DNA of 64,000 nt, taken from positions 6,293,857-6,357,856 of the forward strand of contig JAJEKV010000052.1 of the NCBI GenBank assembly GCA_021234155.1. The letters run 5' to 3'. A program made the position numbers and the translations under genes. The stretch comes from Isoetes taiwanensis (taxonomy: Eukaryota; Streptophyta; Lycopodiopsida; Isoetales; Isoetaceae). Positions 5,981 through 44,455 of this stretch are shown one piece after another. The notes below the pieces were generated by a model that worked only from the letters and a program-made list of their open reading frames with translations, was not told the origin of the DNA and did no database searches. Each line of letters begins with the position of its first letter. Position 1 is the first letter of the stretch.

Positions 5981-8900
5981 AATGTTCTTGGGGACCGAGC
6001 AAAGCACCGGGCTATGCTCCCAGAGTACTAACTTGATAGGATCCCAAACCAAAAAAGTGGGGAAATTTTTCTCATTTTTTTTAGTATGTGCTAAGCTAGT
6101 AAATGCTTATGAACTGAATATAATAAGACTAAAATAGTGAGAGCCAAAACCTCCTCGTGCAAGCGTGGTCTCACACGCCACGGGTCAAAAGAACTGAACT
6201 TTAGTTTTTGGGCGTATGCTTACTGGGTGAGACATCGAGCCAAAACTTTTTAAAACTTAATGAATTTCACAAAAGTAATATGATAAGGCGAAGTTCTAAG
6301 GTAAGAATTAGTTAGAATAGTATGTTTAAATCACTTAAATTAGAAGTTAATGTCCTCAACGGGCACACGCTACCGGGTTAAAACAACCGAACTTCAATTT
6401 TTGAGCAGGCGCCAATTGCGGAGACATTGATCCTAAAACATCTTCAAAAGTGATAACTTTCAAAAAAGTAATGAAATATGGTAACCGAATTTTAAGCTAG
6501 GAATTAGCTAGATTAGTCTAGCTTTTCAATCTATTTGAACCTCATCTTAAAAGGATTCCTACAAAGAGTGTGAATTGAACCTCCCACCTGGTGGTAGGTT
6601 AAACCCCCCAAACCCCCGTACAACCACTAAGGGCGGCATCGCTTATGTTTAAAATATGATTCTTAATTAGATTTAAGCTTTAATAATGTTAGATAATATT
6701 AATGGCCAAGCCTAGACTTAGAACCATGAGGTTAGAAAGGTCTACATTAAGCCATGTAATAGGATAATAAGTGTTTTAGCCCATCCAAAGTGGGGTAGCT
6801 TGTAATTTGACCCGGCACTGGCCATCTATAACAGACCTAGGACCCCCCAAATTTATAGACTGCTTAGAAATTTGCCCAGATTTCGCGATTTAGGACGTTT
6901 ATTTTCCGGGACGACATGGCGCACTAAACAGGCCGCCGACTTCAACGACATAAGGCGTAAACAGCCTGAGGCCAAGGAGGTCGGCGAAACAAGGAGTGAA
7001 GGGCAAAGGCATGGAGGATCGCCGGAGACGAAAAAGACCCCGAACATCAAGGTAGTTATTAAGGAACGCCAGCCAACCAGCTAAGTATGAGTAGGAATCC
7101 TGTGGATCAACTTTAAAGCACTAGAAAGAAGAGGACATTGATCTCGGATTCAAGGGATGAAGAGAGCCAAGAAGCATACGCAGCAGATGGGATGAGATAC
7201 AAGAAGAGTGAGAGGGCAGAACCAGAGCCGGAGGCCAAGGCTCAAGAAGCCAGAGCGTAAGCGGGTCCAACATTTTGAAGACTCAATGTACCGCATACCT
7301 GGCGTAAGAGGGTGACACTCACGAAGGAAGGACATGCAGCTTTGCCACCGTGCATCAAGGGGAGATATCCACAGAAAAATTTTGTAAATGATGGAAAATT
7401 TTGTTAGTATAAAGAGTTTTGACTAAGTAACGGTGTAATCTTACTTAATTAGGGGTGAGTTAGCAGCATCAGCTTTTTGTTTTAGTAAAATAAGGACATC
7501 TCTAGAGCAATTAGTGTCTTCGACACGTCACCGGGTCTAAAAACAAACCCGCTTTTGAACGAGGCTAACGGTGAGACCTTCATACCTGTGACCATGTCCA
7601 AACTAGACCAAACATTCCAAATTGACCACGCAAGGGGTCCATTCTCCCCGTTTAACTCGATGAGCCTAGCATGATTAGATCCTTAGATCACCCAAATTGG
7701 ACAAGTTTTGACCAAAATGGGGAAGTTATTTCACACACGCTACCATGAGCAAAAACAAAACTTCAGCTTTTGATCCGACGCAATGTGTGAGACCTCCAAA
7801 CTTTGAACCTCCATAACTTGAGCTTACAGAGCTCCAAATCACCAAATTTGTTGTAATAGGACCAAGTAGGACACCCTAGGAATCCATTTATGACCTCAAA
7901 TTAGGCTAGAGATGTCAAAACCTAGCTCAAAATGACCAAAATTGCTCAAACCCTTGAATTGTTTTTCCAAACTGTGGGTTTGTTTGTAAATAGAAGCATA
8001 CCCCATTAGTAGCTCGCAAGTATTGATCTCGCAAAGTTGATGCTTTACTCCTAGATAGAAGTGCCCAAGAACACCCCTTTGTTATAGTCATCTAGACCTC
8101 GAGATAGCAACCCAAGTCCAACTCCGGCCGTACATCACATCTCAAGCCATGCCAAAGGCATAAACCTTGACCTAACTGGTGTCCTTCTAATAGAGTTTGA
8201 CTTATATAGCCTACACCTTGACACTCCATATTGCCTGTGGTACCTAGAAAGGAGCTAGAGTCTAGAGCCAAGTCACCCCATGTAGAGATTGGACTCCCCA
8301 AACCAACTTTGCTGGGACCTTAGAGTATGCCTCAAACATCATGGAGGTCTTTAAAACAACCCTCATGTCATGCTATACCACACGTCCTAATGTCCATAGA
8401 CTTGGAGATTATAGATATGTCTCCAAGAATGTCGCCTTGAGCCATCTTGCTTGCTTATAGAGCCCAAAATGTTGTAGGAGAGCCCTTCAAGTAGACCCTT
8501 AGACTCTAGAATATATGAGCTGCTTTTAAGAAGACTCAGGGCCAGAGCTAGAAGAGCTTAGAGGCGCAACTCCTTGAAGACATCAAGGTCCCAAACCATG
8601 TACGCACAGATAAGGAGAGGAGACCAAAAGGCGTAACCCAAGAGAGGAAAGATCACCACGACCTTGCAGCCCAGCTCAAGCTTAAATGTCATGAAACGCC
8701 GCCAAGGGGTGAGAGACTCGAATGGATGGGACCCAAGGGACGGAGGAGACGACCTAGCCAAAGGGTGTACAAATCACTTGCAAAGGCTTACCCGCAATGA
8801 GCAAACTCTGAGTGGCGCAATGGAGATGACCACACTTCCAAGCAATGTGAGAAGCACCTCGGAATGAAGCAAAGCCCAAGCAATGTGAGTCGACTCGGGA

Positions 8901-20159: not shown

Positions 20160-22571
20160 TTAAAAGCGCGACGATCAGAAACCTTGAGTGATGCCGGAAT
20201 GGTTCAATAGCCTCATGCTGGCATAGCCTGATGCCGTTTTTGCGATGGATGCCAAAAAAAACCTAAGCACCTTATGTTTCGTTCATTTTTGGACCATCAG
20301 ATCTGCTCATCTAATCCTAGCCGTCAAAGTTAGGGCGTGATCCACGATACACCCTATAACATTATAATATAAGAAAGATGTGGGGTGCTCTTACTAGCTC
20401 TTAGGCTCGACCTATTCCTAGTCTTTAGAAGGTAGGTGCTATCCCGTTCGGTCATGTGCAAGATGTGGTACACATCGTTTATATGGCATTGAAGGAGTAG
20501 GAGGTGATGATGGGGATTATAGGAAGGGTAAGTAGGCATTTGTAGGTGAAATCATGTTCGGAGGCCTTACCCAATATTCCAAAAGAACAAAATCACAAAA
20601 ATGGCCTGAGGTGAACTACAACAAAGACGACCCTATGCTCTTAAACTGAACTTTAATTTTCATAGCTGTACAAAATCTGAGTATGATGAGGAATTGAATT
20701 ATCAACTCTTGTATAATTCAGTTTGGCAAGATGCTAATGGAATATCCTTGATCTGCTTTCCAAATTTGGGACTTTGGCGATGCGTGCCCAAGGATTGCAG
20801 CTTTCTTCTGAAACTAATTGTGGTCAATCGCAGAAGAACAACCGTGGAACAACCGAATCACTATCTGCGAGGTTCATCGAGTATGGTGGTGCTTTCGAGC
20901 AAAGTCCTCGATCTCAATTCTATGTCTTCGAGATAAGAAAGAAACCCCAATCCCAACAAAAAATTTGAGCTCCATATATTCAATGGTGGGGCTAACCCCA
21001 GGTGCACGCTAGATGTTCCTCTGCATTCTTTAGACTATCAAATGGGCATCATCGCCAAATAATCTTCTTTGCTTTCGCGGGATTTGCCCTCACAAGTAGC
21101 ATTTATTTTACGGATTTGGTTCCAAATGGACTCCATTTTAGGGGCAACGCCGAGATCAAGGTTCAACTTTTAGCTTATCATTAAGATAATCCATTAGCAT
21201 CATAGATGCTCGAGGCATGTGCATGTGATCGCATTCAAAGAAGTAATGTGGAATGGGAAGAGGAGTGGATTCGGTGTAGCAGAGGCGGGGCGCTTCGCTA
21301 GCAGGCGTCGTTCGGTGTAGGCGAGGGCAGCTCTGCCGGCCCGGTAGGAAGCGTTTAGAAAGCAGCGGCGGCTGGCGATAACCGATACCGGGAATCGATG
21401 CCCTCACCATTCCACAACGATGAATAAGAAAAGAAACGATTCTTCGGTTTTAGCATATGGCTTGAAGTTTAGATTCAGAGAAGCTCGACTATGGCTTGAA
21501 GTTCAGGTAGTTCAGGTAAGCTATGGTTTGGCGATTCTATGGATTCAAATTTCAACAGAGTTCAGGTAAGCTCAGCGGCTATGGCGATGGATCAGAGTTC
21601 TGCCGCTATGGGGCTTGGAGTTCCGTCGTTTCCCCCTTCCTCGACTGCACACAGGTGAATGAAACATAGTTGTAATAGGTCAAGCAAGAATGCTACATCG
21701 ATTTTCCATTCTTGATTAGAATGGTTGCAACGTGGCAAGCTATTATTGGATGAAAAACAAGAATTCACACCAACTTACCTTGACGTCTAGTTTCGGAGTT
21801 CTGCCGACTGTAAAGAGTTATTGCAATTTTGGGTGTTTGCTTTTGGGTATTACTGAGATTTTGAGAGTTCTCTTTGATCAAAATAATTTTTGAATTATTA
21901 GCCAAAGGTTTGAGTTCCGTTTCCATTCTCGGGCTTTTTTATAGTTATTCCGTCAGATCTGAGTGTCCTACTAATACATCAAAGTGCGTTTTTTATTTCC
22001 TCTAGGTTTTACACAAATTTTTCATTTGGATTCATCCATGACGATGTTTGAAGGTTCGAAACAATAGGCACATTCTGAGACTCTGGATTAATTTTTAGAC
22101 AATGCTTCGAGCTTGGGTGAGATCTTAGAGTGCAAAATTTGAATCGAAGGCATCGCCTTCAAAATAAAAAAATGAAGGGTACCATCAAAGAAATCAAAGA
22201 AAAGGTAAAAAAAAGGGGGGTAACTAAAGTTATCATCTGAATGGTAGCCCAATGTTTAGGTTGTTGGGTACACCCAGCCCTAACCTAAAACCCATTGTAT
22301 GAATGGAAAAAAGTTTAAAGGTTCGAAGTTTTTTTTCTTTATTGAAGGACGTCAATCTATTCACCATCACCTTAAACATGCCATATGTACTAGATAATCA
22401 CATGTAAAGCAACTCCTAGCATAAGATACCGTGGATTAGCTGCCATGTGATATGTAGAATGTGATGTAGTTAAAGGTTCAAAGTTGCATTGAATAAATGA
22501 AAAATGTTATAGATTTGAAGTTCCAAAGGACAAAACGGGCTTAGTAAGTACATTATGAACAATAACCTTCT
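20160..22571. other. unassigned DNA with short imperfect repeats
   Basis: No convincing gene. Around 21,430-21,620 short phrases (ctatggcttgaagtt, gagttcaggtaagct, ctatggcgatgg) recur irregularly, a small degenerate repeat. The minus-strand frame 21,156-21,410 overlaps GC-rich sequence but has no known motif. The rest is AT-rich with A and T runs near 22,160-22,340. Confidence 0.4.
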
Positions 22572-22610
22572 ATTCTCGAATAGGGCTCGCATGAAACAGA
22601 CAAAAACTCC
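22572..22610 (-). repeat. inverted partial copy of the palindrome repeat family
   Basis: Reads attctcgaatagggctcgca... and is the near-perfect inverse of 22,988-23,028 (about 39 bp with a few mismatches). The two arms therefore bracket a 457-bp segment like terminal inverted repeats. However, homology in other copies continues past 23,028, so this is better read as an inverted fragment of the same family than as a clean MITE end. Confidence 0.75.
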
Positions 22611-22636
22611 GTGAGCTTCCATCTTCCATGCCCACT

Positions 22637-22830
22637 ATTTGAGAATGCCATCGATCAGGAGCCATCTAATCGGGTATTCTCGAATGTGAGCATGCATCTC
22701 TCCCATGCATGCATGCATTGCATGCATTTTTCCGAGGCTCTCGTTCATTTGGGGGCGCTCTTCTTGCAGATTCTTTTTATCGACTTCTCATTTGGCATTT
22801 CTCCTCTCTCGTGATTCCCTTGGCCTCTTT
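22637..22830 (+). repeat. palindrome repeat family, copy 1
   Basis: Starts with the nested palindrome (atttgagaat at 22,637 ... attctcgaat ending 22,685). It continues with gcatgcat runs, then ctcgttcatttgggg.cgct..ttcttgcag and tctcctctctcg.gattccctt. About 190 bp are shared with the copies at 23,019 and 23,742 in the same orientation. Confidence 0.85.
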
Positions 22831-22987
22831 CTTTTCAATCACAGGAGGGAGGGGCTTCTCCTGCTTGGTTTGACAGTTTGACGTCCTTTTCCATGTTCTA
22901 ACATATTCTTCCTCGATTTTGTCCCTATTTTGGCCATGCTTCAACCTTCGACCCCGCTTTTTTGATAAGGAAGTTCTCTTTTTTGTG

Positions 22988-23205
22988 GGAGATTTTGTCC
23001 GGTTTCATGCGAGCCCTTATTCGAGAATGCCATTGATATGAGCCGCCGGATCCGGCTGATTCTCGAATGGCGAGCATACATCATTCCATTCATGCATTGC
23101 ATGCATTTTCTAAGGTTCTAGTTCATTTAGGGACGCTATTTCTTGCAGGCTCTTCTTGACTTCTCCATGTTTCTCCTCTCAGGCCCGGTTCCCTTGACTC
23201 CACCC
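22988..23205 (+). repeat. palindrome repeat family, copy 2
   Basis: Preceded by gtttcatgcgagccc, then perfect 10-bp arms attcgagaat (23,019-23,028) and attctcgaat (23,059-23,068) enclosing a smaller hairpin agccg...cggct. Then come tgcattgcatgcat and the same downstream blocks as copy 1. Confidence 0.88.
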
Positions 23206-23229
23206 ACCCTCCTTAATGTGTATATTATA

Positions 23230-23345
23230 GTAAATGTTGTTTTTTTGTCGCGTGGCACGCATGACCAGCCCCTCGCTTTTTCGAGGTGTAAATGTTATTT
23301 TTTTGTCGCATGGTACGCGTGACCAGCCCCTCGCTTTTTCGAGGT
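23230..23345 (+). repeat. 58-bp tandem duplication
   Basis: Two adjacent 58-bp units (23,230-23,287 and 23,288-23,345), each gtaaatgtt.ttttttgtcgc.tgg.acgc.tgaccagcccctcgctttttcgaggt, differing at only a few positions. The second is followed by a T-run. High identity makes it one of the younger duplications in the window. Confidence 0.92.
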
Positions 23346-23714
23346 TTTTTCTCTATGGTTTTCTGTTGATGATGTGTAGGTCCCGGGGTGATCTGGCGAC
23401 CCGGTGTGCTCGATGGAGCGTGGGTCTTTTGTGGAACGCGAAGTGGCCTTGCATTGTCCAAGCCCTTTGCTGAGATTTTATCGCTAGGGTTATTCCTCGA
23501 AAACTTGAAAGGGCGGGGTTTTTTAATCCCGACAATAAGCCCTCGGCAGGTACACTAGCCAACATCTGTAGCACTCAATTTATTTGGGGTCCAGGTGTTA
23601 TAACTGGATATTCCCTATGTTCTTCATTTTTTTTAGTAGCCTGCGATGTGCAGCTACCCACTTTATACCATTGTAGCAAAACTACTGAGATGAATAAAAA
23701 GCCTAGCTAGCGGG

Positions 23715-23915
23715 AGCTCTTGTCTGTTTTCATGCAAGCCCTTCGAGAATCCCATCGATCCGAGCCATCGAATCGGCATTCTCGAATGGGCAAGCATGCA
23801 TCTCTTGCATGCATACATGCATTTTCTGTGGCCCTGGTTCATCTGGGATCGCTATTTCTTGCAGCTTCTTCATCGATTTCTCATTGGCGTTTTCTCCTCT
23901 CTCAGCAGTTCCCTT
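23715..23915 (+). repeat. palindrome repeat family, copy 3
   Basis: Begins gtctgttttcatgcaagccc. Arms ttcgagaat (23,742-23,750) and attctcgaa (23,778-23,786) enclose ccatcgatccgagcc. It then has catgcatctcttgcatgcat, ctggttcatctggga.cgct and ttctcctctctcagcagttc, collinear with copies 1 and 2. Confidence 0.88.
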
Positions 23916-23924
23916 GACTCTGCC

Positions 23925-24605
23925 ATCTCTAACTTTACCTCATCCCTCGTTTCTATAAATGCTGCTTATTTAATTTGTTTAGTGTGCCTATATTTGGTCA
24001 TATCTGGGCAGACATTTCGCATAACATGAGTCTAACTCAACCTTGTCCATTGTTTTCGTCATACTCCTCATCTTCGGGCTTATATTCAGGGGTTCTTAAC
24101 CTTTCTCTTCACTTTGTGCTCCCGTATCTGCGACCTCTGCTTCAACCTCGTCCCTCGTTCTAGTATTATATGTGTTCTCCTTTTGATCGACCTCCACTTT
24201 GATGAACCATTCACGTTCCTTGCCATATCTGTTTAGCTTTGTTGTCCAAGCTTGATCTGTTTTTTGATGTCTTCGATTTGTTTCATCACCACCCATTTCT
24301 ACTACGCTAGTCTGAACCAGCCTTAGCTATCTTAATATTCACCTTCACTCTCCTATTCTTCTTCCAAATCATTTCACAGACCTTACGAATCTCGTTGCTT
24401 GGAACTTCTTTTTTATGTCCATCTCATTTTTCTTCTTGACCTTTCTCTTGACTTTACGATGATCTGTCTGCAACCTCTAACTTTAACTCATCCCTCATTT
24501 TTTGTAAATACTCTTATACAATTTGTTTAGTTTTTGCCTATATTTGGTCAATATCTGGTCGGGCCGTTCACATGACATGAGTATAACTTAGCCGTGTCTT
24601 GAAGT
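23925..24605 (+). repeat. diverged direct repeat, two main copies ~548 bp apart
   Basis: 23,925-24,060 and 24,473-24,605 share ctctaacttta.ctcatccctc, aatttgtttagt, gcctatatttggtca, atatctgg.c.g and acatgagt.taact. A partial third copy lies at about 24,095-24,175. The block directly follows palindrome-family copy 3, so it may be the family's downstream part. Confidence 0.75.
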
Positions 24606-43294: not shown

Positions 43295-43456
43295 TATGTC
43301 TTTATGTTTTTTGTTTTTAGGTCCATATTAAGAAGTTTTTCATCACGCCTATAAACACCTATGGCAGTTCCTACCCATTCTAAGCCGTTAAATGGACTAT
43401 AGTGTAAACATGTACCAACAGAAAGTTCTATTAATACGCTCTGGGTTCAATTCATT

Positions 43457-44455
43457 TAGAATGGGCTCACATGAAATGAAAAAACTCGGCTTCTTTCCAT
43501 CTCAACAGCATTTTCTATAATATGATAGTGGCAGCCTACACATGCAAACTACCCAGCACAAAGAAAGATAAAGGGATATGCTACAACTTGGACCCCCCAA
43601 AATACAATGCTATTAGATATTTAGTTTGTGTAATTCCTCATTGAAAACTTATCATCGATTGCCAAAAACCCCGTTTGGTTTCTTTTGCGAAAACCCCAGC
43701 GGACAAGCCTCACCAAAAGGACTTGACAAACGTGAAGGTCGGTGAAATAATTCCTGTTCACTTAATGAAGAAGTCAAAGCTTCTGCCAACCCGTAATTTA
43801 ATTCCCTTACATCAACACTAGAACAAATGTGAAAAACAAACCTACCAAAGTGGAGGGATCGGATGATGCCGCGCCACGCCGACAACAAAAGAAAACTCCT
43901 GGGTTGGTCACGCCGCTGCAACAAACAAGCTAAAACAATTAAGGGGAGGGCGTTTCAAAGAATAGAATAAAGTACCGTTGAGAAAGAAGAGGAAGTTCCG
44001 ATGATGTTGATGAAGAACCTCGCCACTTAATACAACGATCTTCCAACCAAAGAAAGTATTCAATGCCGACAAGTGAGATGTATAAGCCAGCTTCTCCTTT
44101 CTAGAATCTCGATCCGAGGGCTCGGATCGATGGAATTCTAGAATGGGGCTCCACAGCAACAAAACTTCCTAATAGAACTTACCGGATCAAGGGCTAAGGT
44201 CAAAGGATTATGACTCAAAGAAAAGGCAAGGTCAAGAAAGAACATGCTACAATATGCGCGAAACAAATTAATAACCGCCATGGAAGAAGTTCCCTCCCCT
44301 CGTGATATTTTAAAGAAGAGAATACCAAGGCACCAAAAGAGGTTAAAAATACCCATGTAATTTTCGACGAAGAACCCGGTCAATACAAACTAATTCAAAA
44401 TCCAGAGGAAAGCATGGCGTTTCGCCCCCGTGAATCGGCACCGAGGGCTCGATCG
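43457..44455 (-). mobile_element. ~1-kb insertion in the satellite carrying the palindrome family
   Basis: Satellite sequence breaks off after ...cgctctgggttcaattcattt and resumes at ctaatataattcctagcaactcccatcaag, so ~1 kb is inserted. Its left edge (agaatgggctcacatgaaatg) and an internal segment at 44,143-44,175 (gaatggggctcc...aaaactt) both match, in minus orientation, the gggctcgcatgaaac block next to the palindrome repeats at 22.6-23.9 kb, and the 45-bp nested palindrome lies at 44,099-44,143. I could not define terminal repeats or a target duplication. The minus-strand frames inside have no known domain. Confidence 0.55.
44099..44143. repeat. 45-bp nested palindrome
   Basis: Perfect outer arms ttctagaat (44,099-44,107) and attctagaa (44,135-44,143) enclose perfect inner arms cgatccgag (44,110-44,118) and ctcggatcg (44,121-44,129) with a two-base spacer. 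On the minus strand it aligns with the palindrome of the 22.6-23.9 kb repeats (ccatcgatccgagcc core). Confidence 0.95.

Follow-up and report, generated by a model that had tools for sequence, protein, structure and literature searches.

The window, the whole 64,000-nucleotide stretch of Isoetes taiwanensis DNA that was analyzed, harbors a family of short repeats on its plus strand at 22-24 kb and a diverged relative on its minus strand. The left and right ends of a repeat unit, as read on the plus strand of the window at 22-24 kb, are called A and B, respectively, and the left arm gives each arm type its name: CTC (ATTCTCGAA), CTA (ATTCTAGAA), and CTG (ATTCTGGGA and similar). The cluster begins with an inverted B (right-end) fragment on the minus strand (22571..22607, ...CATGCGAGCCCTATTCGAGAAT), recognized by sequence and pairwise alignment, which is 92% alike over 36 nt at 22,572-22,605 and 90% alike over 41 nt if the fragment is extended to 22,610. 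The plus strand then carries a first B|A junction (22638..22685, TTTGAGAAT ... ATTCTCGAAT), which is decayed and was recognized by sequence; unit 1 (22647..23028), consisting of an A module, a short x spacer, and a B end (TTTTGTCCGGTTTCATGCGAGCCCTTATTCGAGAAT); a second B|A junction palindrome with a rearranged inner part (23020..23068, TTCGAGAAT / ATTCTCGAAT); and unit 2 (23029..23750), consisting of an A module, a y region, and a B end. A third B|A junction palindrome, recognized by sequence and folding (23742..23787, plus strand), comprises in order TTCGAGAAT, CCCAT, the hairpin CGATCCGA-GCCA-TCGAATCG, GC, and ATTCTCGAAT. It leads into a third A module (23751..23919, plus strand), and many family alignments stop near the 3′ end of this module, at query position 200-202. 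On the minus strand, an A-y-B unit of the ATTCTAGAA (CTA) type (43454..44134) ends at an AAT triplet, seen on the plus strand as ATT at 43,454-43,456; its B|A junction (44099..44144) consists of TTCTAGAAT, TCCAT, a hairpin, and ATTCTAGAA. None of the 10 window ORFs has a Pfam match.

Pairwise alignments bear out the three direct copies, the inverted fragment, and the minus-strand relative 20 kb away that an earlier note on this DNA had described from the letters. The three direct modules, with starts at ~22,647, ~23,029, and ~23,751, are 73-76% identical to one another over 203-220 nt (E 6e-26 to 7e-34), and each carries the ATTCTCGAAT arm ~30 nt into the module. The diverged relative (43,454-44,144) aligns at 43,982-44,146 with 65% identity over 176 nt (E 8e-10). 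The arm change quoted in the note, cgagaat/attctcg in one locus and ctagaat/attctag in another, is present as TTCGAGAAT/ATTCTCGAA at 23.74k versus TTCTAGAAT/ATTCTAGAA at 44.1k. The palindrome is backed by single-stranded DNA folding in three of four window copies, with z-scores of -3.84 (23.75k copy), -2.32 (23.03k copy), and -4.70 (44.1k copy). The 22.65k copy has a z-score of -0.97, with 31 of 200 shuffles folding equally well, and is decayed, while the inner part of the fold differs in the 23.03k copy; the claim that two nested arm pairs persist in every copy does not hold for these two.

Further repetition accompanies the modules. A 58-bp tandem duplication (93% alike, TTTTTGTCGCGTGGCACGC...CCTCGCTTTTTCGAGG) lies inside the y region at window positions 23,230-23,345, and repeats resembling it stand beside the A module in many of 30 aligned loci. 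Two more direct repeat pairs (65 nt at 77% and 67 nt at 72%) directly follow the third A module at window positions 23,919-24,531 and are possibly another decayed repeat.

The 1.66-Gb assembly contains many copies of the family. A search with window positions 23,720-23,930 yielded 1,612 first-look candidates. All of the 40 that were scored, including the query copy from the window, are matches, which places the existence of a repeat family beyond chance. The anatomy of the copies was read from 20 stretches of ~9.5 kb and from the 3.2-kb loci of the genome search. The element ends are sharp, with copies beginning and stopping at identical points: the left end is (AAT)CCCATCGATCCGAGCCATCGGATCGGC-ATTCTCGAATGGGC and the right end is ...GGGAGCTTTTGTCTGTTTTCATGCGAGCCCTTCGAG(AAT). 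Flanking DNA precedes an outer A and follows an outer B, and an A directly follows an internal B. The nested palindrome of the window is the junction at which the right end of one mobile element unit (B, ...TTCGAG-AAT) meets the left end of the next (A, CCCAT-hairpin-ATTCTCGAA); its outer arms are B against A, and its inner arms are the hairpin of A. The family is therefore not built around the palindrome as the core of one element, as had been proposed. The composite layout is [A-x-B][A-y-B], with a size of 1.1-1.3 kb in six uninterrupted CTC-type copies that retain both outer ends (L004, L015, L017, L021, L026, L029).

Outer insertions have the same ends at an AAT-like triplet. The flanks of nine elements with both outer ends, namely the six CTC-type copies, L008, L049, and a 7.9-kb copy described below, were compared by eye and have nothing in common past the triplet, and L026 lacks even the triplet. 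No target duplication longer than the triplet, a point raised by the earlier note, is seen in these nine elements. Long terminal repeat elements, LINEs, and most cut-and-paste elements were rejected on this absence, by eye, of a duplication beyond the triplet. Comparison of flank pieces with the fetched loci gave one-sided matches only and no empty site.

The same ends and junctions recur throughout the genome. A CTA-type junction pattern has 277 matches with at most three mismatches, the window junction at 44099..44144 among them, and its reversed control has none. Left ends whose arm continues with G or T give 1,244 exact matches (control 0), nearly all reading ATTCTGG among the matches listed. 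A CTG-type sample of 60 places, picked from ~100 listed of the 1,244 to cover subfamilies and near pairs, consists of 44 outer ends and 16 junctions. The triplet at the outer ends is AAT in 31, TAT in seven, GAT in two, and another in four, and it is AAT at all 16 junctions; AAT makes up 2.4% of window triplets. Among 11 sampled near pairs, eight (C3, C124, C167, C199, C351, C510, C362, C30) begin with an outer A1 that is followed 1.8-10.7 kb downstream by a B|A junction, a layout not seen in the other three (C63, C72, C47).

The neighborhood of copies in other loci is rich in repeats and retroelement remains. In L034 (5215-7948), duplicated blocks of 528 bp and 593 bp, 97-99% alike, lie at and past the right end; as they extend past it, the flank was copied along with the end. 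Tandem arrays with spacings of ~430 bp and ~390 bp occur near copies in L050 (1-2408 and 6328-6771) and L032 (7000-9430). Retroelement pieces near copies comprise two PF00078 reverse transcriptase (RT) stretches, an SH3_retrovirus domain, and a retrotransposon gag (L034:8018-8863 on the minus strand, L031:4807-5358, L037:8639-9307 on the minus strand, and L034:1-789). One ORF in the fetched loci matches DUF4283, a domain not known outside plants, and so points tentatively to a plant host.

Large copies provide insights into the class of the element. A copy of ~7.9 kb on C1027, found by following outward from a CTG-arm left end (ATTCTGGGGAGGGAC), has the layout A1-x-B1|A2-y-B2, in which A1 equals A2 over 119 of 119 nt, B1 and B2 agree at 97% over 30 nt, ~0.9 kb of y separates A2 from B2, and AAT stands at both flanks. 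With ends related to those of the window family, it is a complete large copy in which the DIRS-type layout A1 ... B1 A2 ... B2 is present. A TATA-like box (TATATAAG) follows shortly after the A1 arm. The y and B2 region matches the window family at 78% over 72 nt (E 7e-10), a match that falls in part of the y region of unit 2, and at 68% over 96 nt (E 1e-4). Eight stop-free stretches of this copy, some in alternative frames, were scanned against Pfam. One matches PF00078 at 2.8e-8, above the cut-off, and also matches RT chains of the Ty3/retroviral type; the other seven have no Pfam match. The reading frames are broken, and the RT is known from this one copy. Neither a methyltransferase domain nor a Rep/helicase was found among the eight stretches. 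A WGPHHVDRFAS stretch is, by motif, what we take to be RNase H; its ORF has no Pfam match. Short tandem repeats (CCACCTTGAGGGTGATGCTA) lie in y just past A2, ~7,070-7,250 from the left end (L052/L051).

The C3 copy contains two recombinase-like motif blocks, in order and in different frames, just before B1. The first block (LRISEALALNWRDL...HHSKRDQ) matches PF00589 with an E of 0.024 at 14.8 bits, below the 27.1-bit cut-off, and PHROG 216 integrase with an E of 0.031; it has no PDB match. The second, catalytic-end block is read as YSARRGGAS...GRWRSSSSHSRYV or as YSARRGGAS...AHGRWRSSSSHSRYVLRD, with a spacing that presumably corresponds to the Cre-type R-W-Y spacing. This block has no Pfam or PHROG match, and the 118-aa piece that holds it has no Pfam match and only unrelated PDB matches with E 0.25 or worse. 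No intact recombinase ORF was seen in the copies examined, and the recombinase call in the C3 copy is a putative one at the level of motifs.

In view of the split-direct-repeat anatomy and RT of the 7.9-kb copy and the recombinase-like motifs of the C3 copy, the most fitting reading of the window copies is as non-autonomous derivatives. That they are short forms with complementary ends, derived from a split-direct-repeat recombinase retrotransposon, is fairly secure. The full explanation, which traces these non-autonomous copies to a tyrosine-recombinase retrotransposon of the DIRS order, PAT/Ngaro-like, and has them move by the mechanism outlined here, is in our judgment probable. The transcript would start inside A1 and hence be without the true left end, and in reverse transcription the internal B1|A2 copy would give the missing end back. 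A circle in which B abuts A would form, and a recombinase supplied in trans would exchange this B|A junction with a host AAT. With the A end folded into a hairpin of its own, the B arm could reach over the AAT and pair with the A arm, an arrangement that would hold the 3′ end of B beside the 5′ end of A and might permit either a self-splinted closure or a folded recombinase substrate. A paired arm change would then keep both ends matched. We favor the view that end-to-end pairing shapes the circle junction; the complementary ends may help circle closure or recognition for integration.

Covariation of the arms was assessed on junctions from several sources. Thirty-five were taken from the fetched loci by B-end filters, with the 7.9-kb copy, the window 23.03k copy, and one truncated copy left out of them; one window junction missed by the filter was added, and of the 16 CTG-sample junctions L088 was lost to an arm deletion. 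The CTA type contributes 39 strings, every distinct one among ~100 listed of the 277; the search pattern behind them constrained both arms, allowing three mismatches, so that pairing is favored among them. The resulting set had 87 rows, 69 of them distinct, and 67 distinct junctions remained after two more, in which a one-base deletion shifts the arm, were taken out. The 500 shuffles used as the control leave the relatedness of the junctions in place. In the 67 junctions, 97.6% of cells are paired versus 94.0±0.3 in shuffles, and 36 cells are changed on both sides versus 8.5±2.2 (0/500). The score for covariation reaches 0.130 versus 0.062±0.005 (0/500) and drops to 0.006-0.049 when the partners are slid by 1-3 columns. 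Neither pairs with a double change of any kind (three versus 2.2 expected, 158/500) nor further pair types (14 versus 13.3 expected, 206/500) are more numerous than chance would give.

The source of the signal is two outer column pairs. Columns 4/42 read TA in CTA, GC in CTC, and CG in CTG, columns 2/44 read TA or CG, and other departures in the junction table are one-sided or unpaired. Covariation is almost absent from the inner hairpin, which has one double-changed cell. The excess of compensatory changes that the earlier note had proposed to look for is present in double-changed cells, with strong signal confined to two column pairs; its claim of selection on complementarity is supported between families and for the outer arm only. 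Past the first eight pairs, the 16 sampled CTG junctions are mixed: the matched change of GGGAAAGG with CCTTTCCC occurs in L075, L080, L083, and L085, GGGAAGGG stands with CCCTTCCC in L096, L102, and L103, G-T pairs occur in L066 and L070, and unmatched changes occur in L054, L056, L057, L062, and L093. L088 has its deletion, and L092 is CTC-like. The CTG subfamilies GGGATGGG, GGGACGGG, and GGGCAGGG display no compensation past the first eight pairs. In one element, L049 (4517-5523), the two outer ends are of CTG type and match (ATTCTGGGAAGGGAC / GTCCCTTCCCAGAAT), and the inner junction between them is of CTC type. This mosaic suggests exchange between families, and the match of the outer ends despite an inner junction of another type is read, for this one element, as the ends being kept as a pair. 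Compensatory change is thus supported as real but narrow, lying between families and in the outer arm.

The same covariation is accounted for equally well if the arms, in an element of the same class, are inverted copies of a binding site for the recombinase or another protein, present at both ends and acting without a fold; the arms would then change together because the specificity of the protein changes. We hold this to be possible, on the doubtful side of even. It is consistent with arms that are near-palindromic themselves (TTCTAGAA, TTCTCGAA) and stand at both ends in inverted orientation, and with the few letters that differ between families. It fits less well with the conserved hairpin between the arms and with complementarity of up to 15 nt in some CTG-type ends, such as the L049 pair given above. 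By eye, moreover, no inverted arm pair directly flanks the AAT, unlike the classical recombinase core sites. For the choice between a fold and a dyad binding site as such, which the earlier note had offered side by side, the same evidence fits both and they cannot be told apart.

Read on the minus strand, the units resemble a non-autonomous Helitron2/Helentron (HINE), with a 5′ terminal inverted repeat, a 3′ inverted repeat ~27 nt from the end, a terminal hairpin, and A|T insertion without duplication. The asymmetric inverted repeats and 3′ hairpin agree with the definition of Bao and Jurka (PMC3627910) and with the HINE descriptions in PMC4067079, and compensatory changes are noted in PMC3627910 for one pair of related elements. 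A 5′-terminal hairpin of Helitron2 type that uses the inverted repeat amounts by eye to at most ~3 bp. This candidate was abandoned because a large copy with such CTG-type ends carries split direct repeats and an RT, its eight scanned stretches giving one RT match and no Rep/helicase match; the C3 copy with its recombinase motifs also speaks against it, and we consider it improbable. Less probable still is the idea that these transposons carry a heat-shock element (nTTCnnGAAn), as Helitrons of Caenorhabditis do (PMC6927752). TTCnnGAA does lie within CTC and CTA arms; the idea was dropped as CTG arms (ATTCTGGGAA / TTCCCAGAAT) are without it and keep their complementarity, and the 32 occurrences in the window versus 24.7 expected, a number reached by 10 of 100 shuffles, are no clear excess. 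Tandem units joined within a hairpin also suggested Penelope-like elements or retrozymes, in which the junction would hold a self-cleaving ribozyme. This reading has next to no probability and was dropped: the window gives no Rfam match at the gathering score, a hammerhead core is not visible by eye, and the large copy has split direct repeats and an RT matching PF00078 and Ty3-type chains. A tRNA-derived SINE was rejected, as ARAGORN finds no tRNA in the window.

Across several families, this one genome provides over 1,500 matched ends and junctions (277 + 1,244), and with them at least one element (L049) whose outer ends match around an inner junction of another type, so that the end-pairing idea is directly testable. 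A more far-reaching form of the preferred reading is unlikely as a whole: a DIRS-order lineage in a land plant would have self-complementary ends that fold the circle junction into a hairpin, the ends would splint closure or the recombinase would act on folded single-stranded DNA as integron integrases do, and the ends would co-evolve as a lock and key separating families. At integron attC sites, a tyrosine recombinase acts on a folded imperfect palindrome whose arms vary and stay complementary. The likeness is an analogy of possible working only, as no integron features are present here. A land-plant host, if true, would extend the DIRS order to a group omitted by a 2022 review, which gives the order, in plants, as known only from green algae (PMC9033089). 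PMC3537659 states that its own DIRS1-type class has no known complete versions in streptophytes.

Several known systems share parts of this anatomy. Helitron2, Helentron, and HINE elements are alike in short asymmetric inverted repeats, a one-sided hairpin, A|T insertion, and tandem copies (PMC4067079, PMC5148889, PMC3627910), and differ from the large copies here, which have RT or recombinase motifs and split direct repeats. For DIRS1-like elements, PMC3266345 gives ATT as the commonest terminal triplet, junctions that read AAT among the examples in its Table 3, and a junction copy carried inside the element; these are the points of likeness. For DIRS1, a circle with a 3-bp circular junction and recombinase exchange with the target is given there as a proposed model, as are circle closure and end recognition in such retrotransposons (PMC3266345). 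DIRS1-like elements have inverted terminal repeats and an internal complementary region, whereas the repeats here are direct and complementarity is limited to short arms. The closest likeness is to the PAT/Toc/Ngaro/VIPER group of the DIRS order (A1-B1-A2-B2), with which the elements share the A1-x-B1|A2-y-B2 layout, the equality of A1 and A2, the RT, the recombinase-like motifs, and the lack of a longer target duplication. Split direct repeats and triplet junctions are already known (PMC4157794, PMC8547959, PMC6681497); no report of self-complementary ends in split-direct-repeat elements was found in the literature consulted, which consisted mostly of papers outside subscription. Unlike the PAT/Ngaro group, the elements described here have ~0.9 kb from A2 to B2 in the large copy, a window family of short composites of 1.1-1.3 kb, B and A ends that are mutually complementary, and a conserved hairpin at the A end.
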